This document shows, one piece after another, positions 9,412 through 58,767 of a stretch of DNA of 64,000 bases. Origin of the DNA: Oenococcus kitaharae DSM 17330. GTDB taxonomy: Bacteria; Bacillota; Bacilli; Lactobacillales; Lactobacillaceae. The stretch is taken from the NCBI RefSeq assembly GCF_000241055.1, contig NZ_CM001398.1, positions 1,413,163 to 1,477,162 on the forward strand, read 5' to 3'. Within the stretch, counting starts at the first letter, position 1; each line of letters starts with the position of its first letter. Under the pieces are notes generated by a model that saw only the letters and a list, made by a program, of their open reading frames with translations, had not been told where the DNA came from and did no database searches. Position numbers and translations under genes: made by a program.

Positions 9412-9550
9412 CAAAAAAAATCCCGACAGCACATCGATGCTGCCAGGACGCTTGCACGCGGTTCCACCTGACTTCCGCCAAAAATGGCGACACTTTACTT
9501 CCAAACACACTCAACAATCGCCACACTGTCTCATCGTACGTTTGAACACA
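9412..9550 (-). ncRNA. Glycine-specific T-box riboswitch leader
   Basis: The minus strand carries the T-box core AGGTGGAACCGCG (9469-9457), which binds the NCCA end of uncharged tRNA. It is followed by a terminator hairpin (TCCTGGCAGCA pairing with TGCTGTCGGGA, 9449-9421) and a T-run. Upstream, CAAAC and GTTTG close a hairpin of about 45 nt with GGC, a Gly codon, in its apical part (9522-9520), a candidate specifier. A second small stem (GTCGCC/GGCGG) precedes the core. When glycine is scarce, uncharged tRNA-Gly should stabilise the antiterminator and switch on glyQ and its partners. The T-box core is certain; stem I and specifier are tentative. Confidence 0.9.
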
Positions 9551-9555
9551 AACAA

Positions 9556-9584
9556 ATAATACTATTTTCAAAAAATTAAAACAA
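9556..9584 (-). promoter_or_regulatory. Promoter of the glyQ T-box transcript
   Basis: On the minus strand TTGTTT (9584-9579) and TATTAT (9561-9556) with a 17-bp spacer. The predicted start is near 9549, giving a compact leader of about 190 nt to the glyQ ATG. Confidence 0.55.
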
Positions 9585-49857: not shown

Positions 49858-52800
49858 ATGGAAAAGAGGAATTTTTTAGTGGAAAGAAAGGCAAGAATAG
49901 ATCGAAAAAAACTATATAAATCAGGAAAAAACTGGATTATAGCCAGCACCACCGTCTTTATGATGGCGACCGGCTCAAATCTTATCACGGCACAGGCAGA
50001 CGACTTGAATCAGGAAGGCACAGCTGCACAATCAGTCTCCCCTTCGACTGCAGCTGCTAACCAGAGCGAATCGTCAGCACAAAGCACTGAACAAAGCGCA
50101 ACACAGGCAGCAACAGACGGAGAGGCTTCGACTGTAAGCACTGCTGTCACAACCATCACGCCCCACTACGTCCAACAAGCGGGGAAATGGCTTTACATGG
50201 GCAGTGACGGCGAGTTTGTTAAGGGACCGCAGACAATTGATGGCAATTTGCAATTCTTCGATGAACAAGGCATTCAAATTAAAGGCAGCTTTGAAACAGT
50301 GGACGGCTCAAGCTATTATTTCGATAGCCAAAGCGGTAACGCTGTAACAGGTTTTAAAATTATTAATAATGACTTGCATTACTTCGAAGAAGACGGCAAG
50401 GAAACAGTTAATAACTACGCCACAGATAAACAAGGCAACATTTTCTATTTTGATGAAAATGGCCAGATGGCAACCGGTGTTAAAACAATCCAAGGACAAA
50501 GCTATTACTTTGATCAGGATGGCCACATGAGAAAAGGCTATTCCGGCGTGTTTGATAATCAGGTCCTATACTTTGACAAAACAACCGGTGCCTTAGCAAA
50601 TACAAATGTGTCCAGTATTAAAGAAGGACTTACGGCACAAAATGATGATTTCACAGCTCATAATGCCGTTTATTCGACCAAAAGCGAGAGTTTTACAAAT
50701 ATTGATGGCTATTTAACCGCTGAGGCCTGGTATCGTCCGGCTGATATTCTTGAAAACGGCACTGACTGGCGTGCTTCGCGTGCTGACGAGTTTCGTCCGA
50801 TCCTGACAACTTGGTGGCCCGACAAGCAAACTGAGGTCAACTATCTGAATTACATGAAAACTCAGGGATTCATTACTAACGATCAAGACTTCAAGCTCTC
50901 TGATGACCAGCTTTTATTGAATCATGCAGCCCAATCTGTACAGGGTGAGATTGAAAAGAAGATTAGTCAACAAGGGTCAACAGACTGGTTGAAAACATTG
51001 CTGCAGACTTTTATCAACCAGCAGCCCTCTTGGAATGGGGAAAGTGAAGATCCAGGCAGCGACCATTTGCAAGGCGGTGCCTTGACTTTTGTTAACAGCC
51101 CCTTGACACCCGACTCAAATTCCAACTTCCGGCTGTTAAACCGAACACCTACCAACCAAACCGGGACCCCGCAATACGATACAGATGCTTCTCTTGGCGG
51201 TTTTGAACTATTATTGGCCAACGATGTCGATAATTCCAATCCAGTTGTCCAAGCCGAACAGCTCAACTGGCTCTACTATCTCTTGAACTTCGGGTCAATT
51301 ACAGCTGATGATCCCAATGCTAACTTTGATGGTATTCGTATTGATGCTGTTGATAATGTCGATGCCGATTTATTGCAGATTGCTGCCGCTTATTTCAAGG
51401 ATGCTTTTAAAAGCGGCTCAAACGACCAAACAACCAATCAGCACCTGTCTATTTTGGAAGACTGGAGCCACAACGATCCCGAATATATGAAAGCCCAGGG
51501 CTACCCGCAGCTAACCATGGACGATTATATGCATACACAGCTGATCTGGTCGTTGACTAAGCCGGACAATATTCGCGGCACAATGCAGCGTTTCATGGAT
51601 TATTACTTAGTCAATCGCGCAAACGACTCGACTAACAATGAAGCTGTTGCCAACTATTCTTTTGTCCGTGCACATGACTCAGAAGTCCAGACCGTGATTG
51701 CGCAGATCATTTCAGACCTATACCCCAATTCCGGAAGCGGTCTGATTCCAACGACTGATCAGCTTCAAGCAGCTTTTGAAGTCTATAATGCCGACATGAA
51801 ATCGGATGTCAAAAAATATACGCAATATAACATCCCCAGCGCTTATGCCATGCTTTTAACCAACAAAGATACCGTTCCGCGTGTCTATTACGGTGATATG
51901 TACACAGACGATGGCGATTACATGGCAAACAAGTCGCCTTACTTTGATGCTATCAGCACACTTCTGAAAGCCAGAGTTAAATATGCAGCCGGCGGACAGA
52001 GTATGGCCGTTGATAAAAACGATATTTTGACTAGTGTTCGTTTTGGCCAAAATGCAATGCTAGCCAGTGATTCAGGAGATAATCAAACGCGTCAAGAAGG
52101 TATTGGCGTGATCGTCAGCAATAATTCTCATTTGAAACTGGCTGAAAATGATCAAGTTGTTCTGCACATGGGTGCGGCACACAAAAATCAGGCTTTCCGT
52201 GCCCTACTATTAACAATTGAATCTGGATTAGAGAATTTTGATACAGATCTTCAAGCACCGGTGAAATATACGGACGCAAATGGTGATTTGATTTTTACTG
52301 CAGCAGAATTGGCTGGTTATTTGAATCCGGAAGTTTCCGGCTATCTATCAGCCTGGGTCCCTGTCGGTGCTGCTGATAATCAAGATGCCAGAACGGCAGC
52401 CGATTCGGCAACTAGTACCGATGGCAATGTTTTCCATTCAAATGCCGCATTGGACAGCAACGTTATTTTTGAGGGATTTTCTAATTTCCAATCAATTCCG
52501 ACAGCTGAACAGCATGACGATTTTACAAACGTGAAAATCGCCGAGAACGCCGGATTGTTTAAAGATTGGGGAATCACCAGTTTCCAATTAGCACCGCAAT
52601 ATCGTTCCAGCACTGACAGCACATTTTTGGATTCGATTATTCAAAATGGCTACGCATTCACTGATCGGTACGACTTAGGATTTGATACGCCGACAAAATA
52701 TGGCGATGTCGATGACCTAAGAGCGGCTATCAAAGCACTGCATGCCAACAACATTCAAGTCATGGCCGACTGGGTGCCCGACCAAATTTATAATCTGCAA

Positions 52801-54414
52801 AACCCAGAAATTATTACAGTTAACCGAACTGACTCTTATGGTCAGCCAATCGCTGGATCCGACTTGCAAAACGACCTTTACCTGGCTTACACAAATGGCG
52901 GCGGACAGTATCAAACAAAATTCGGCGGCGCTTTCCTGGAAAAACTGCAGCAGCTTTATCCCGATTTGTTTACGAAAACACAAATTTCAACCGGCCAAAC
53001 GATTGATCCTAGCCAAAAAATTACTGAATGGTCGGCCAAATACTTCAACGGTTCCAACATCCAGGGCCGTGGGGCTTATTATGTGCTGCGCGATTCAGGT
53101 ACAGACCAATACTTTAAAGTTATTTCAAACGATGAAAACGAAGCATTTCTGCCTAAACAGCTGACTAATCAGCCCGGCGAAACTGGCTTTTCTCAAGATG
53201 ATCAGGGAATTATCTTTTTCTCGACCAGCGGTTATCAAGCCAAAAACGCTTTTGTCCAAGGCGATGACGGCAACTACTATTATTTTGATAACACTGGTCA
53301 TATGGTGACTGGCCCTCAGACAATTAACGGCCGGCACTACCTTTTCTTCCCTAACGGCGTTGAAGCACAAAATGTTTTTGTCCAAAATGACCGTGGAGAG
53401 ACCTACTACTACGATCAAAGAGGCCGGCAGGTTGCTAATCAGTATGTGACTGATACGAACGGCAATAGTTTCCGTTTTGACGAGAACGGCATCATGCTGG
53501 CAAACCAATTGGCTCAAGTAGACGGTCACTGGCAATTCTTCAAATCTAGCGGCGTACAGGCTAAAGATGCCTTTATTCTAGGCAGTGATGGCAAGCTGCG
53601 GTACTTTGAAAGCGGCAACGGCAATATGGCTGTCAACGAATTCAAGGGCAGCGAAAACGGCCGGTACTATTATTTCGGTGCTGATGGGCAGGCTGTCAGC
53701 GGTTTGCAAACAATTAACGGCCGCCAGCTGTACTTTGACGATCACGGCCAGCAGATGAAAGACGCCTTTTATACGAACCAATCTGGTCAGCGTTTTTACT
53801 TCAATGCCCTCACCGGCGATTTAGTTAAAGGCAATTTCATTTATACGAGTGCCTCCAGCAGTTTCACGCCTGACAACGACTCGTCCGACAGCTATCAGGG
53901 TGATAGCCATCTTTGGTACTATGCCGATAGCCAGGGGCAGATTGTGACCGGTTTTCAAACAATCAATGGTCATTTGCAATATTTTGACGATATCAGCGGA
54001 CAGATGATCACAAATCGTTTCATGCGCCGGGCTGATGGTAATTGGATCTATCTCGATGAGAATGGTGAAGCAGTGCGCGGCATGCGGGTTATCAACGGTC
54101 TCACCAATTATTTTCGAGACGACTTCACTCAAGTTAAAGACGGATTTGCCCAGGATCCTAATAGCGGCGAAAGACACTACTTTAACGGGACTAATGGCGC
54201 AATGGTCACAAATGACTACTTCTCCCCAGACCAAATTCACTGGTATTATGCCGATGATAGCGGCCAGCCGGTCACTGGTTTTCAAACCATCAAAGGCCAA
54301 GTCCAGTATTTTGACCAAGATGGTATCCAACTGAAAGGCGGTTCACAGACTGACCCCGTTACAAAACAGACTTATTATTTTGACGATAAGTTTGGAAACG
54401 GTCAAATCCTCTAA
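49858..54414 (+). CDS. Secreted dextransucrase (GH70 glucansucrase)
   Basis: Polymerises the glucose of sucrose into dextran outside the cell. 1518 residues: KxYKxGKxW-type signal (KLYKSGKNW, then a hydrophobic core to about 47), Ser/Ala/Thr-rich variable part, glucan-binding YG-type repeats (about 110-255), circularly permuted GH70 catalytic region (about 300-1090), and a long C-terminal array of repeats (about 1095-1518). Catalytic residues are visible: nucleophile D496 in [12 protein letters not shown], acid/base E534 in SILEDWS, transition-state D607 in FVRAHDSEV. No LPXTG anchor. Length and genus recall DSR-OK of O. kitaharae (from memory). A GTG at 49879 with AAGAGGAA upstream is an alternative start. 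No terminator directly follows; the next is in the arginine leader. Confidence 0.97.
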
Positions 54415-54449: not shown

Positions 54450-54477
54450 TTGTTTTCTTCTGAAAAGCATGTATACT
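54450..54477 (+). promoter_or_regulatory. Promoter of the argHG operon
   Basis: TTGTTT (54450-54455), 16-bp spacer, TATACT (54472-54477). Start point near 54484. There is no space for a promoter between the downstream terminator and argH, so the operon transcript must begin here or read through from upstream. Confidence 0.6.
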
Positions 54478-54494
54478 AAAACTCAAGTTACATC

Positions 54495-54551
54495 ATGAAG
54501 GCGAAATCATTCACAACTTCATTTATCTCTTCTAAACTTATCCGACGATAA
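54495..54551 (+). CDS. Putative arginine leader peptide (18 codons)
   Basis: ATG AAG GCG ... CGA CGA TAA encodes MKAKSFTTSFISSKLIRR. The last two sense codons are Arg, and the stop codon overlaps the first bases of the terminator stem that follows. This is the layout of an amino-acid attenuator: a ribosome waiting for Arg-tRNA on the CGA pair would cover 54550-54560 and block the terminator, while a ribosome that finishes would let it form. ATGAAG and CTTCAT (54517-54522) can also pair. No Shine-Dalgarno is visible and the 5' leader would be only about 11 nt, so translation is assumed, not shown. Confidence 0.5.
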   Translation: MKAKSFTTSFISSKLIRR

Positions 54552-54600
54552 AACAACTTTTCTTGTGCATTTGTTCAGCACGAAATTAGTTGTTTTTTTG
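54550..54600 (+). terminator. Intrinsic terminator in the argH leader (probable attenuator)
   Basis: AAAACAACT (54550-54558) pairs with AGTTGTTTT (54588-54596), with an inner stem TTGTGC/GCACGA, followed by a T7 run. It lies between the promoter and argH, 27 bp before the argH start. It would also end dextransucrase transcripts. No T-box core or known riboswitch is visible in the leader. Confidence 0.85.
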
Positions 54601-54626
54601 TACTCAAAATTTAGGAGAATAGATAA

Positions 54627-55946
54627 ATGAAATTATGGGGTGGACGTTTTGTAAAGTCCGAAGATCCGGACATGACCGCGTTTGATAACTCTTTGCCACA
54701 AGGCAAACTGATGTATCAAGAAGATATTTTAGGATCGATTGCACATGCGACAATGCTTGGCAAACAAGCCATTATCAGCCAGTCAGATTCCGATGCCATC
54801 GTCGCAGGCTTAAAAGAAATTCTCAGCGAAATTAAAGCCGGCAGTTTGAAAATACCCGATACAGGTTTTGAAGACATTCATAGCTTTGTCGAAAGTGTCC
54901 TGACAGAAAAAATTGGCGATGCTGGTAAGAAACTGCATACAGCACGGTCGAGAAACGACCAAGTCGCCGTTGATACAAAAATGTATATCAAAAACCGCCT
55001 GCAGGGCGTTATCGCGGAAATCGACCTTTTAATCCAAGCTTTCATCGATAAAGGCAATGCTAATCCGCAAATTATGCCGGGCTACACACATCTGCAAAAA
55101 GCGCAGACTGTGACATTCAAATATTACCTTGGCGCCTATGCACAAATGCTGAAACGGGATAAAAAACGGCTATTAAACGCCATTGATGTTATGGATGAAA
55201 ACCCGCTCGGGTCCGGTGCTATAGCAGGAACGACACATGAAATCGACCGCCAACTAACTACTGACCTGCTTGGCTTTAAAAAACCAGTCGATAACTTTAT
55301 CGATGGTGTCTCTGATCGGGATTATATCATCGAAGTTCTAGCTGATTTTTCAATCATGGCCATGCATCTTTCTCGTTTGTCTGAAGAATTAATTATCTTC
55401 GCCAGTCAGGAATTCAATTATGTGATCTTTGATGATTCGCTTTCAACAGGCTCTTCGATGATGCCCCAGAAGAAAAACGCTGATTCAGCAGAATTAGTTC
55501 GCGGCAGTTCAGCCTTAATCATCGGCCAGTTAAACCAAATGCTGATCCTCATGAAAGGATTACCGCTGGCATACAACAAAGATATGCAGCTGGACAAAGA
55601 TACCTTTCTACCAGCCTTTGACCGGATTGAACACATGCTGCTGCTGATGAAAAAAATAGTCCTGACGCTGAAACTCAATTCCAAGAAATTAACAGCCGCC
55701 GTGAAAAATGGTTTTCTTAATGCCACCGACATGGCTGACTACCTGGTTAAAAAAGGGTTGCCCTTCAGGGATGCTCATGGCGTTGTCGGACAAGCAGTCC
55801 TAATGGCTGAGCAAGCTCATAAAAAATTGGAAGATTTAACACTCGAAGAATTACAACAGTGCAGCCCGATCATTCAGGACGATATCTATGAATACTTGGA
55901 TGTCAGTCAGTCAATGACTAAAGGCATCAAAAAGGAGATGTTATGA
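54627..55946 (+). CDS. argH: Argininosuccinate lyase, truncated at the C-terminus
   Basis: Last step of arginine synthesis: argininosuccinate to arginine and fumarate. 439 residues; family motifs are present (LHTARSRNDQVAVDT near 105, MPGYTHLQKAQT near 152, STGSSMMPQKKNADSAEL near 273, with Ala where Pro is usual after KKN). AGGAGA sets the start. The end is abnormal: after SQSMTKGIKKEML the frame stops at 55944, yet 30-100 bp further on the same frame resumes a plausible ArgH tail (GLADDDDAQLKIQAKLIKNA), and a +1 frame between them reads SPHSGLD. This fits small insertions near the 3' end; about 25-35 residues are lost. The main catalytic motifs remain. Confidence 0.93.
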   Translation: MKLWGGRFVKSEDPDMTAFDNSLPQGKLMYQEDILGSIAHATMLGKQAIISQSDSDAIVAGLKEILSEIKAGSLKIPDTGFEDIHSFVESVLTEKIGDAGKKLHTARSRNDQVAVDTKMYIKNRLQGVIAEIDLLIQAFIDKGNANPQIMPGYTHLQKAQTVTFKYYLGAYAQMLKRDKKRLLNAIDVMDENPLGSGAIAGTTHEIDRQLTTDLLGFKKPVDNFIDGVSDRDYIIEVLADFSIMAMHLSRLSEELIIFASQEFNYVIFDDSLSTGSSMMPQKKNADSAELVRGSSALIIGQLNQMLILMKGLPLAYNKDMQLDKDTFLPAFDRIEHMLLLMKKIVLTLKLNSKKLTAAVKNGFLNATDMADYLVKKGLPFRDAHGVVGQAVLMAEQAHKKLEDLTLEELQQCSPIIQDDIYEYLDVSQSMTKGIKKEML

Positions 55947-56056
55947 TTTCTCCCCTCATAGCGGCTTGGATTAGCCGACGACGACGATGCCCAACTGAAA
56001 ATTCAAGCGAAACTGATTAAAAATGCATTGTCAAAAAATACTAAAAATACTTCATT
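55947..56056 (+). pseudogene. Out-of-frame 3' remnant of argH
   Basis: Between the argH stop and the argG ribosome site. In the argH frame, after a second stop (TAG 55959-55961), it encodes GLADDDDAQLKIQAKLIKNA, like the amphipathic C-terminal helix of argininosuccinate lyase. The preceding SPHSGLD lies in the +1 frame. Joining them needs about +1 bp before 55947 and +5 bp near 55968, i.e. small insertions. Confidence 0.6.
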
Positions 56057-56071
56057 AATAAGGAGACTATT

Positions 56072-57292
56072 ATGTCAAAGAAAATTGTTTTAGCTTATTC
56101 CGGCGGATTGGATACCTCAGTGGCTATCCCTTGGCTCGGAGATAAAGGATATGACGTCATCGCCGTTTCATTAGATGTTGGCCAGCACGGAAAACAGATG
56201 GATGCCATTCAGAAAAAAGCTCTGAAGATCGGCGCAGTCCAGTCAATCGTGATTGATGCTAAAGATGAATTCGCTGATGATTTTGTCAGCAAGGTTATCA
56301 AATCAAACGCACTTTATGAAGGCGAATACCCTCTTCTCTCAGCTCTTTCCCGGCCTTTAATTATCAAAAAACTCGTCGAGATTGCTCATGAAAATAACGC
56401 TGTCGCGATTGCTCATGGATCTACAGGAAAAGGCAACGACCAGGTACGGTTTGAAGCTGCAATCCATGCTCTGGATCCAGAAATGCACATCGAAGCACCG
56501 ATTCGTGATTTCCAGTGGTCCAGAGAAGAAGAAATCCAGTATGCCCACACGCATGATGTACCGGTACCAATCAATTTCGACTCCCCTTACTCGATTGATG
56601 AAAACCTTTGGGGCCGTTCCAATGAGGCCGGTATTCTGGAAAATCCTTGGAACCAAGCACCAGCTGACGCCTATGCTTTGACTGTTGCCGTCGAGGATGC
56701 ACCAGATAAAGCCGACTTTGTCGATATTGAATTCAAGAATGGCCTGCCCGTCGCATTAAATGGACAGCAGATGAAACTATCTGATTTGATCAGCAAGCTA
56801 TCAGTGTTGGCCGGATCGCACGGTATCGGCCGGATTGATCACGTTGAAAACCGGCTGGTCGGCATCAAGTCCCGTGAAATTTATGAAGCACCCGCAGCTG
56901 CAGTTATCATGACAGCTCACAAGGACTTGGAAGATATTACCTTGGAACACGATGTTGCCCACTTCAAGCCGATCATTGAACAAAAGATCGCCAACCTGAT
57001 TTATAACGCCATGTGGGTCTCACCATTATTCGATGCACTCAATACTTTCATTGATGAAACGCAGAAGGTTGTTAATGGTGTTGTCAAGATGAAGCTCTTC
57101 AAAGGATCTGCCATCGCTGTTGCTAGAAAGTCGGAACACAACTCTCTCTATTCTGAAAAGCTGGCCACTTATACATCAGCCAATTCCTTTGACGAACAGG
57201 CTGCAGTCGGCTTTATGAAACTTTATACCCTCCCAGCAACTGTTTACGAACAAGTTAACCACATTCACTCAAAAGAAAAAGAAGAAATCTAA
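56072..57292 (+). CDS. argG: Argininosuccinate synthase
   Basis: Condenses citrulline and aspartate using ATP. 406 residues: PP-loop [15 protein letters not shown] at the N-terminus, [14 protein letters not shown] near 116, and [20 protein letters not shown] near 170. AAGGAGA precedes the ATG. The stop is immediately followed by the permease ATG. Confidence 0.97.
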
Positions 57293-57970
57293 ATGATACC
57301 GGTTAGTCTGGCGACTTTAGATTTCGCAGAAATGTGGCCATATCGCAAGATTTTTATCAACGGGTTGTTCAATACTTTGCAATTAACGATTTTAGCCTTA
57401 TTGATCGGATTAGCATTAGGCTTGCTTTTGGCCCTGGTTAAAGTAATTAAAGTTCCTTGGCTGAGCTTATTTGCACGCTTCTATACCTCTGTTTTTCGAG
57501 GAACCCCGCTTTTAGTGCAAATATTTCTCATCTACTTTGGCGCCAAACAAATTGTCGGCTTTAATGTCAATGCTTTCTCCTCGGCTTTGGTCGCCTTGTC
57601 TTTAAATTCAGCTGCCTATATCTCAGAAATTCTGAGAGGCGGTATTCAGGCTGTGAACATCGGCCAAACTGAAGCGGCCCGTTCTCTGGGATTTAACTAT
57701 CGGCAATCCTTCTTCTATGTAGTTCTCCCGCAAGGATTAAAATCTGTCCTGCCGGCCATGGTCAACGAAGCAATTAGTCTCTTAAAAGATACTTCTTTAG
57801 TATCAACAGTCGGCATGATGGACCTCATGCGTGCTGGCATGACGGCTCAAGGAGGTACTTACTTAGCCTTTGAACCCTTTATCATCGTTGCAATTATCTA
57901 CTACATTCTCGTCATGATTTTGACTAACTTTTCTAACAAACTCGAAAGGAATTTAAATAAATCAAAATGA
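57293..57970 (+). CDS. Amino-acid ABC transporter permease (His/Glu/Gln/Arg family)
   Basis: 225 residues, five membrane helices; NGLFNTLQLTILALLIG at the start and the EAA loop EAARSLGFNYRQSFFYVVLP near 123, which contacts the ATPase. RGTPLLVQIFLIYF is typical of the polar-amino-acid permeases. It starts directly on the argG stop, without a good ribosome site, so it is translationally coupled. No ATPase gene lies in the operon; one must be supplied from elsewhere. Confidence 0.94.
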   Translation: MIPVSLATLDFAEMWPYRKIFINGLFNTLQLTILALLIGLALGLLLALVKVIKVPWLSLFARFYTSVFRGTPLLVQIFLIYFGAKQIVGFNVNAFSSALVALSLNSAAYISEILRGGIQAVNIGQTEAARSLGFNYRQSFFYVVLPQGLKSVLPAMVNEAISLLKDTSLVSTVGMMDLMRAGMTAQGGTYLAFEPFIIVAIIYYILVMILTNFSNKLERNLNKSK

Positions 57971-58767
57971 TTAAACGTTTTTCTCTCTTAATTTTTACGG
58001 CCATGTTGGCCTTAACCACCTTATTTACACTTTCGAGCCAAGCCAAGAAACCCTTCAGTGGGCAAACGATCAAAGTTGCGACAAGTCCAAATTTCCCACC
58101 TTTTGAAAATAAAGTCGTCGATTCGGCAGGCAATTCGAAAATCGTTGGTTTTGATATTGATTTGTTGAAAAAACTGTCAAAAGACTTGGGATTTAAATTC
58201 AGTCTGCAGGAAACTGACTTCAGCGGTCTGATGGGATATTTGCAGTCTAACCGTGCAGATCTGGTTATTTCCGGCATGACAGCAACGCCTGAGCGGGCAA
58301 AGAATGTCGATTTCTCAACGCATTATTTCAATGCTAAAACCGCTATTCTTCATCCAAAAAATATTAAAATCAAATCGGTCAAAGATTTAAAAAATCTGAA
58401 AGTAGCAGCTGTTTTTAATACACAATATGTGGATCAGGTCAAAAAAATGGGTGCAAAAGTCACAGCACTAGACACAGGTACACTTGTTGCACAAGATTTA
58501 TGGAATGGCAGCGTCCAAGGTGCTATCATGGATCAAACTAAAGCACAAGATTTGATCAAAAGCCACAAAGGCTACAGTTACTACGTATTTACCAATAAAG
58601 AATTAAAACTGAGTCAGCCAAACACGTTCTCAATTGCATTTCCAAAGAACAAGGAGGCAAAACTTCAAAAAGCAATCAACAAGAAAATAAAATTATATAA
58701 AAAGAATGGGACGCTTAAAAAACTCGCCACAAGATGGATGGGCAAAAAAGTCGCCGCATATCAATGA
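57967..58767 (+). CDS. Amino-acid ABC transporter substrate-binding protein
   Basis: 266 residues of the SBP_bac_3 family: signal peptide (FSLLIFTAMLALTTLFTLSS), IKVATSPNFPPFEN, then SGMTATPERAKNVDFSTHYF (the Arg that usually holds the ligand carboxylate) and a C-terminal LYKKNGTLKKLATRWMG. It overlaps the permease by 4 bp. There is no Cys in the protein, so no lipobox; Gram-positive binding proteins are usually lipoproteins. Being co-transcribed with argHG, arginine, citrulline, ornithine or aspartate are candidate ligands (inference). Confidence 0.93.
   Translation: MIKRFSLLIFTAMLALTTLFTLSSQAKKPFSGQTIKVATSPNFPPFENKVVDSAGNSKIVGFDIDLLKKLSKDLGFKFSLQETDFSGLMGYLQSNRADLVISGMTATPERAKNVDFSTHYFNAKTAILHPKNIKIKSVKDLKNLKVAAVFNTQYVDQVKKMGAKVTALDTGTLVAQDLWNGSVQGAIMDQTKAQDLIKSHKGYSYYVFTNKELKLSQPNTFSIAFPKNKEAKLQKAINKKIKLYKKNGTLKKLATRWMGKKVAAYQ

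Follow-up and report, generated by a model that had tools for sequence, protein, structure and literature searches.

The argH-argG region of Oenococcus kitaharae DSM 17330 raises the question of how arginine synthesis genes are controlled in this genus. Bacterial arginine synthesis is usually described through the ArgR repressor. Searched with its C-terminal domain model only (PF02863), ArgR was found in none of the seven Oenococcus genomes, five of which are near complete. Of 14 control genomes, 8 have the domain, as do 67 of 101 family genomes, a sample in which Oenococcus counts among the misses. Its absence is not special to Oenococcus; other genera are without the domain too.

The window, i.e. 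the whole stretch of 64,000 nucleotides analysed from this genome (G000), carries the following features around the start of argH.

54450-54477, forward strand: promoter, with the -35 box TTGTTT (54450-54455), a 16-nt spacer ending in TG and the -10 box TATACT (54472-54477)
54495-54551, forward strand: leader peptide gene of 18 codons, product MKAKSFTTSFISSKLIRR and stop, with its ATG at 54495 and the end CGA CGA TAA
54543-54548, forward strand: control codons CGA CGA, followed by the leader stop TAA (54549-54551)
54550-54599, forward strand: predicted intrinsic terminator, with a basal stem (54550-54558 with 54588-54596), an apical stem (54563-54568 with 54578-54583) and a T7 run (54593-54599)
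54519-54536, forward strand: 5' arm of an outer helix in predicted folds, within the leader codons
54610-54630, forward strand: 3' arm of the outer helix in predicted folds, containing the argH Shine-Dalgarno sequence AGGAGA (54613-54618) and start codon, with a 3-nt bulge
54627-55946, forward strand: argH, argininosuccinate lyase (TIGR00838, 515.5 bits, cut-off 279.5)

The first-pass annotation had described the promoter, the 18-codon frame with CGA CGA TAA, the hairpin with its T7 run and argH as a candidate arginine attenuator, and each element is found where it had been placed. The 5' arm of the terminator stem (54550-54558) indeed starts inside the leader stop codon.

Nine such leaders were found in the genus. 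In eight of them, the motif TTG(C/T)NN-16-TAT(A/T)(C/G)T with TG before the -10 box lies 15–18 nt upstream of the leader ATG; the ninth, at argC of genome G006, deviates, with 23 nt from the -10 box to the ATG and no TG. The predicted 5' untranslated regions are short, and transcription would start about 10 nt upstream of the leader ATG. The missing Shine-Dalgarno sequence, named earlier as the weak point of the attenuator reading, is real by eye and common to all leaders. Together with the short distance from the -10 box in eight of the nine, this suggests that initiation would be weak and the default state OFF. It had also been asked whether the argH transcript might start downstream of the terminator. 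Here, the argH ATG follows the T-run after only 27 nt, and a promoter scan gave no forward-strand site in this interval. A 9-of-12 promoter-like match at 54510-54538, a level expected by chance, lies within the leader frame and upstream of the terminator. A simple consensus scanner run over the window listed neither the leader promoter nor the terminator among its predictions. Just upstream of the leader, at 49858-54414, lies an open reading frame of 1518 residues with repeat units, which presumably resembles a glucansucrase. The DNA upstream of the leader differs in the Oenococcus genomes G003, G006 and G002 (O. oeni).

Could such an arrangement arise by accident? A scan of the window for short frames starting with ATG whose final two codons are the same and which lie beside a hairpin and T-run gave three matches, and the same scan on 30 Markov windows gave a mean of 1.8. 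Arrangements ending in two arginines and a stop beside a hairpin appeared 0.1 times per Markov window. By itself, a chance origin of the leader pattern is only moderately unlikely. The pattern stands above chance because of its conservation and because of the fold of 54480-54640, which has a z-score of -4.28 with none of 200 shuffles as good. These counts bear on a rival explanation, namely that the terminator is constitutive and partial and is joined by a start-site helix, while the leader is untranslated, its frame accidental and the control located elsewhere. The missing Shine-Dalgarno sequence would fit this explanation, as would the frequency of about 0.1 per random window.

Conservation speaks against it. 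The argH gene was found in five of the seven Oenococcus genomes, and all five carry the leader, CGA pair and terminator upstream. The argH of G005 is 98% identical to that of the window. The argH leader peptides read MKAKSFTTSFISSKLIRR in G000 and G005, MKSQILTSSSIHTNIARR in G003, MKTEIQTTLFVSSIARR in G006 and MKNEIQTTSFVSSIARR in O. oeni. Furthermore, a pattern search revealed a paralogous leader directly upstream of argC in four genomes, with the peptides MTHLQATSSFHSFNIVRR in G000 and G005, MNLSRPTSSLIFSNIARR in G003 and MTHLWLTNSLILSNIARR in G006; in G000, the genes that follow it include argC, argD, argF and carA. Seven of the nine leaders were counted as distinct, since both G005 leaders specify peptides identical to their G000 counterparts and were left out. 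All seven have an open frame 0 and a stop in each of the +1 and +2 frames. The leaders are 17 or 18 codons long, a whole-codon difference, and all nine end in CGA CGA TAA. Codons 2–6 diverge, and partial conservation is seen in the central part of the peptide, which would fit a second function of this part as a pairing arm.

The alignment across Oenococcus that had been proposed shows the frame and the terminal CGA pair kept, with terminator arms that change together; a hairpin kept without the frame or its arginine codons is not what the relatives have, since they keep the hairpin, the frame and both terminal arginine codons, as CGA. A leader with tandem codons for the end product, a hallmark of a ribosome-mediated transcription attenuator, is present. 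The untranslated leader with an accidental frame is considered very unlikely, as the leaders retain the start codon, the reading frame (with lengths differing by a whole codon), CGA CGA and the stop while codons 2–6 diverge, as a second arginine operon has the same design and as CGA is never replaced by a synonym. The five genomes represent about four lineages with shared ancestry, so that the shuffle and permutation counts given below are not clean probabilities.

A predicted intrinsic terminator lies between the leader and the first gene, as an attenuator would have it. Folded alone, the terminator at 54550-54599 has -14.6 kcal/mol, and the fold is predicted in all nine leaders although their sequences differ. 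For the nine leaders aligned with MAFFT, RNAalifold returned a different structure; an alignment of five of them was then made and used for a covariance model. In this five-sequence alignment, 5 of 34 consensus pairs are changed on both sides, all of them in the terminator. When terminator arms were reassigned among leaders, 12 of 5040 reassignments equalled or beat the own-partner pairing, a specificity that is inflated by shared ancestry. In the predicted folds, no alternative hairpin using the terminator arms was seen, i.e. no separate antiterminator.

The earlier proposal that a stall at the arginine pair would cover the 5' arm of the terminator was examined with a masking model, in which the ribosome is assumed to protect about 15 nt on either side of the A site. 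Under this assumed footprint, a ribosome at the first CGA lowers the probability of the terminator base pair from 1.00 to 0.00 in all nine leaders. Direct occlusion would suffice for read-through in the model, as had been suggested, without a separate antiterminator. The terminator pair is likewise lost in all nine leaders when the ribosome is placed at the stop codon.

A different sensor has to be considered as well. A trans-acting factor (such as a protein bound to the terminator loop) or a ligand-binding RNA might sense arginine, with the arginine codons only tuning the response. The loop core TTTGTTC (window 54569-54577) is common to four of the five argH leaders, which would suit such a factor, but it is not kept in the G003 argH leader or in the argC copies. 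No Rfam family matches the leader at the gathering threshold, and no ArgR domain was found. This explanation is regarded as highly improbable. The Rfam scan of the window returned only two tRNAs at the gathering threshold and no T-box, in agreement with the first-pass annotation, which had seen no T-box core. T-box matches exist in all seven Oenococcus genomes, with 14 in the genome of the window at E-values up to 0.001, none of them at the argH or argC operon. A sub-threshold T-box match (E 1.6e-6) lies on the minus strand at about 9441-9580 of the window (G000:C1:1422603-1422742).

Beyond the terminator, the predicted folds show leader codons paired with the ribosome-binding site of argH or argC, with the terminator enclosed. 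In the window, the duplex between the leader and the argH start region reaches -18.4 kcal/mol, and codon-order shuffles of the leader have a mean of -9.4 kcal/mol. Per 1000 such shuffles, those as good number 0 (G000), 15 (G003), 15 (G006) and 184 (G002) for argH and 58 (G000), 23 (G003) and 36 (G006) for argC. For synonymous recodings the respective numbers are 2, 12, 8 and 394 for argH and 66, 42 and 49 for argC. The z-scores of the folds are, besides the -4.28 of the window, -4.94 for G003 argH and -3.25, -4.84 and -3.95 for argC of G000, G003 and G006; they are weak for G006 argH (-1.03) and O. oeni argH (-0.12). The G006 argH duplex drops from -13.0 to -8.9 kcal/mol once CGA CGA TAA is omitted. 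The O. oeni argH leader has no detectable outer helix, yet it keeps the frame, the CGA pair and the terminator. In the five-sequence alignment, double changes are absent from the 14 pairs of the outer helix, in which 6 of 70 cells are unpaired. Since double changes occur only in the terminator, the latter is backed by covariation and the outer helix rests on the other tests.

These results can also be read as a transcription lock only, in which the arginine leader governs the terminator and the pairing with the binding site arises incidentally because pyrimidine-rich leader codons face a purine-rich site. The two argH leaders with a weak or absent outer helix, which retain the frame, the CGA pair and the terminator, agree with this, as do the lack of double changes in the outer helix and the argC duplexes, which are only modestly better than shuffles (23–58 per 1000) and synonymous recodings (42–66 per 1000). 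Against it, the duplex beats codon-order shuffles in six of the seven distinct leaders (at most 58 per 1000 as good), and z-scores of -3.25 to -4.94 are found in five distinct leaders among which the pairing registers of the outer helix differ. In addition, the own-partner pairing of the outer helix was equalled or beaten by 16 of 5040 reassignments, again a specificity inflated by shared ancestry. A purely incidental helix is judged unlikely, and a second lock at the start site probable, not certain, on these folds.

The masking model was also applied to the start site. With a ribosome at the first CGA, the calculated cost of opening the Shine-Dalgarno sequence of argH falls from 10.1 to 2.3 kcal/mol in G000 and from 8.8 to 2.4 kcal/mol in G003. 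For argC, it falls from 8.0 to 2.5 (G000), from 9.0 to 2.8 (G003) and from 10.3 to 3.6 kcal/mol (G006). For G006 argH the change is from 4.5 to 2.1 kcal/mol and for O. oeni argH from 2.1 to 2.0 kcal/mol. If the second CGA occupies the A site instead, the model gives 1.6 and 5.2 kcal/mol for argH of G000 and G003 and 2.6, 2.7 and 5.7 kcal/mol for argC of G000, G003 and G006; the values for G003 argH and G006 argC weaken the case for a second lock. A control ribosome at codon 6 leaves, in the same order, 8.8 and 3.9 kcal/mol and 6.3, 6.4 and 8.6 kcal/mol. Because this control leaves just 3.9 kcal/mol at G003 argH, the opening of that start site is not specific to the CGA pair. Hiding of the site by leader RNA and its release by a stalled ribosome were thus calculated for five of the seven distinct leaders; the effect is weak for G006 argH and absent for O. 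oeni argH. A ribosome at the stop codon would lower the cost to 4.6 and 4.3 kcal/mol for argH (G000, G003) and to 4.2, 7.3 and 5.7 kcal/mol for argC (G000, G003, G006), with an overall range of 2.5–7.3 kcal/mol. Since a ribosome at the stop codon removes the terminator pair and partly opens the site, it must leave the stop codon far more quickly than it leaves a starvation stall, and this quick release would be part of the switch.

Taken together, the reading that we favour and regard as moderately probable is a ribosome-mediated arginine attenuator with two locks, in which one stall in the leader would relieve both the terminator and the helix over the ribosome-binding site. The underlying attenuator reading of the first-pass annotation is supported by the sequence comparison. 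Stems and outer helix, and their disappearance under the assumed footprint, come from calculation; translation of the leader, stalling, termination and the direction of the response are inferred. Transcription would start shortly before the leader ATG. With charged tRNA-Arg, or with no ribosome loaded, the terminator at 54550-54599 would form and transcription would stop before argH. In transcripts that pass the terminator, the leader codons would pair with the argH ribosome-binding site and hide it. If arginine is short, a ribosome would stall on CGA CGA and sit on the 5' arm of the terminator, resulting in read-through. The same ribosome would also cover a large part of the outer helix's 5' arm, and the argH start site would be opened. 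In Bacillus subtilis, the polymerase outruns the ribosome, which disfavours control by a leader ribosome.

The choice of the codon deserves special attention. All 15 arginine codons in the seven distinct leaders are CGA. In the 55 long open reading frames of the window together with the argC region (L230), CGA accounts for 97 of 867 arginine codons, and CGA-CGA for none of 32 Arg-Arg pairs. The Oenococcus leaders clearly illustrate how a single rare synonymous codon is retained. Among 45 tRNA candidates, the arginine tRNAs have the anticodons ACG (one gene), TCT, CCG and CCT; one sub-cut-off tRNA candidate had no ARAGORN call. The ACG tRNA carries inosine, and CGA is read poorly by it. In tests with the Salmonella his leader, CGA together with any arginine codon except AGG gave the highest de-attenuation, as described in parts of PMC4046918. 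For Salmonella orf34, passages of PMC6386406 describe similar arginine regulation with rare and frequent arginine codons, CGACGA included. Since these codons served alike in that account, such control does not in principle depend on a rare arginine codon. Over the CGA pair, a small and weak hairpin (-0.8 to -3.8 kcal/mol) can be drawn in all seven distinct leaders (window 54538-54551), with its register shifted in the window; it could be a polymerase pause signal.

The leader was then sought more widely. Within Oenococcus, the covariance model found nine sense copies in five of the seven genomes, two each in four genomes and one in O. oeni; the two genomes without copies are 65–68% complete. 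It also matched the opposite strand at these sites and gave seven weak matches at other positions (E 0.019 to 0.88). Two of these seven, at L182 and L168, were examined and neither resembles the leader. Among 301 family genomes, 22 match at E-values up to 0.01, Oenococcus accounting for five. The matches in the remaining 17 were all inspected and, by eye, judged to be ordinary terminators. Strong leader copies hence occur only in Oenococcus among the 301 genomes, in a search whose stricter filters could miss distant copies. A search of a plasmid collection gave no match. In a survey of 33 loci, 26 contain argG, two of them from Oenococcus; 22 of the remaining 24 have more than 60 nt upstream of argG, and no leader ending in tandem arginine codons beside a terminator was seen there by eye. 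Two survey loci, L011 and L016, contain short arginine-rich frames. The region upstream of argH was inspected at six loci of Enterococcus, Pyramidobacter and Tepidibacter, and none has a short frame with tandem arginine codons at its end. By eye, several relatives have AT-rich repeats upstream of argG, which we take to resemble ARG boxes.

The element shares with the his and trp leaders a short leader with end-product codons followed by an intrinsic terminator before a biosynthetic operon. In contrast to these, the signal would be arginine, no antiterminator was found, the terminator starts in the leader stop codon and a predicted second helix covers the ribosome-binding site. In translational attenuators of the erm type, a stalled leader ribosome frees a sequestered ribosome-binding site, the stall being caused by the antibiotic together with the nascent peptide. 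Here, the stall would instead be caused by codon starvation and combined with a terminator. Because no separate antiterminator hairpin was found, the element is not filed with the his and trp type; judged by sequence and predicted folds, we would file it as arginine-specific ribosome-mediated attenuation without a separate antiterminator.

For Firmicutes, candidate His leaders and the Listeria rli60-ilv system are described in sections of PMC9413887 and PMC5864092, respectively. A 2010 survey states, in a passage preceding its report of His leaders, that no leader-peptide control besides the erm leader was known in this phylum (PMC2965389). Salmonella orf34-speF, as presented in parts of PMC6386406, is alike in that two consecutive arginine codons sense arginine and the next ribosome-binding site is sequestered. 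Its outputs include Rho-dependent termination and RNase G decay, and it serves polyamine synthesis, whereas the Oenococcus element would use an intrinsic terminator before arginine synthesis genes. The likeness noted here is one of design; the orf34-speF family is the DUF2618 leader before ornithine decarboxylase, whereas argH and argC follow the Oenococcus leaders. Staphylococcus aureus rbfL, another Firmicute case described in passages of PMC13009471, likewise senses arginine through rare arginine codons at which ribosomes pause, within a short frame upstream. In rbfL, this pause blocks the following start site and leads to repression, whereas the Oenococcus stall would open the start and activate, in addition to acting on a terminator.

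In the open literature of PMC, in which most subscription papers are not contained, no arginine leader attenuator was found described for Oenococcus or Lactobacillales. Oenococcus, for which the search gave no ArgR, seems to rely on leader-peptide control at both of its arginine operons. The element is compact, since one stalled ribosome would free transcription as well as translation, and it would illustrate control without an antiterminator.

Downstream of argH, the arginine theme continues with the following features.

55943-56020, forward strand: second arginine-rich frame, product MISPLIAAWISRRRRCPTENSSETD and stop, with an ATG that overlaps the argH stop and four consecutive CGA codons at 55976-55987
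56072-57292, forward strand: argG, argininosuccinate synthase (NF001770, 576.6 bits; TIGR00032, 518.2 bits; both above cut-off)
57293-58767, forward strand: amino-acid ABC transporter permease and substrate-binding protein

The families matched by argH and argG are NCBIfam equivalogs. The permease scores above the cut-off for TIGR01726, and its ATG directly follows the argG stop. The best family of the substrate-binding protein is lysine/arginine/ornithine, with a score below the cut-off of that family. Both transporter genes probably share the operon with argH and argG.

The frame between argH and argG has its overlapping start and CGA CGA CGA at codons 13–15 in all five Oenococcus genomes; the remaining peptide varies between the lineages. 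Its segment CGACGACGA has no other occurrence in the window. With a ribosome stalled in this frame, the calculated opening cost of the argG start shifts by -1.4 to +1.0 kcal/mol. As these changes have no common direction, unmasking of the argG start by such a ribosome is unsupported. The frame may set the ratio of argH to argG or affect the stability of the message. A broader and tentative proposal, to which we give somewhat less than even credence, is that Oenococcus, without a detectable ArgR, controls its arginine genes by stalls at rare codons, with two operons, two locks at each and no antiterminator, and with this third frame of at least three CGA codons reading the same signal inside the operon.

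According to sections of PMC3250461, O. kitaharae encodes arginine synthesis and O. oeni is without the pathway. In the O. oeni assembly used here, a frame change at about residue 400 breaks argH in two, and the arginine-rich frame overlaps the stop of the C-terminal part of argH.
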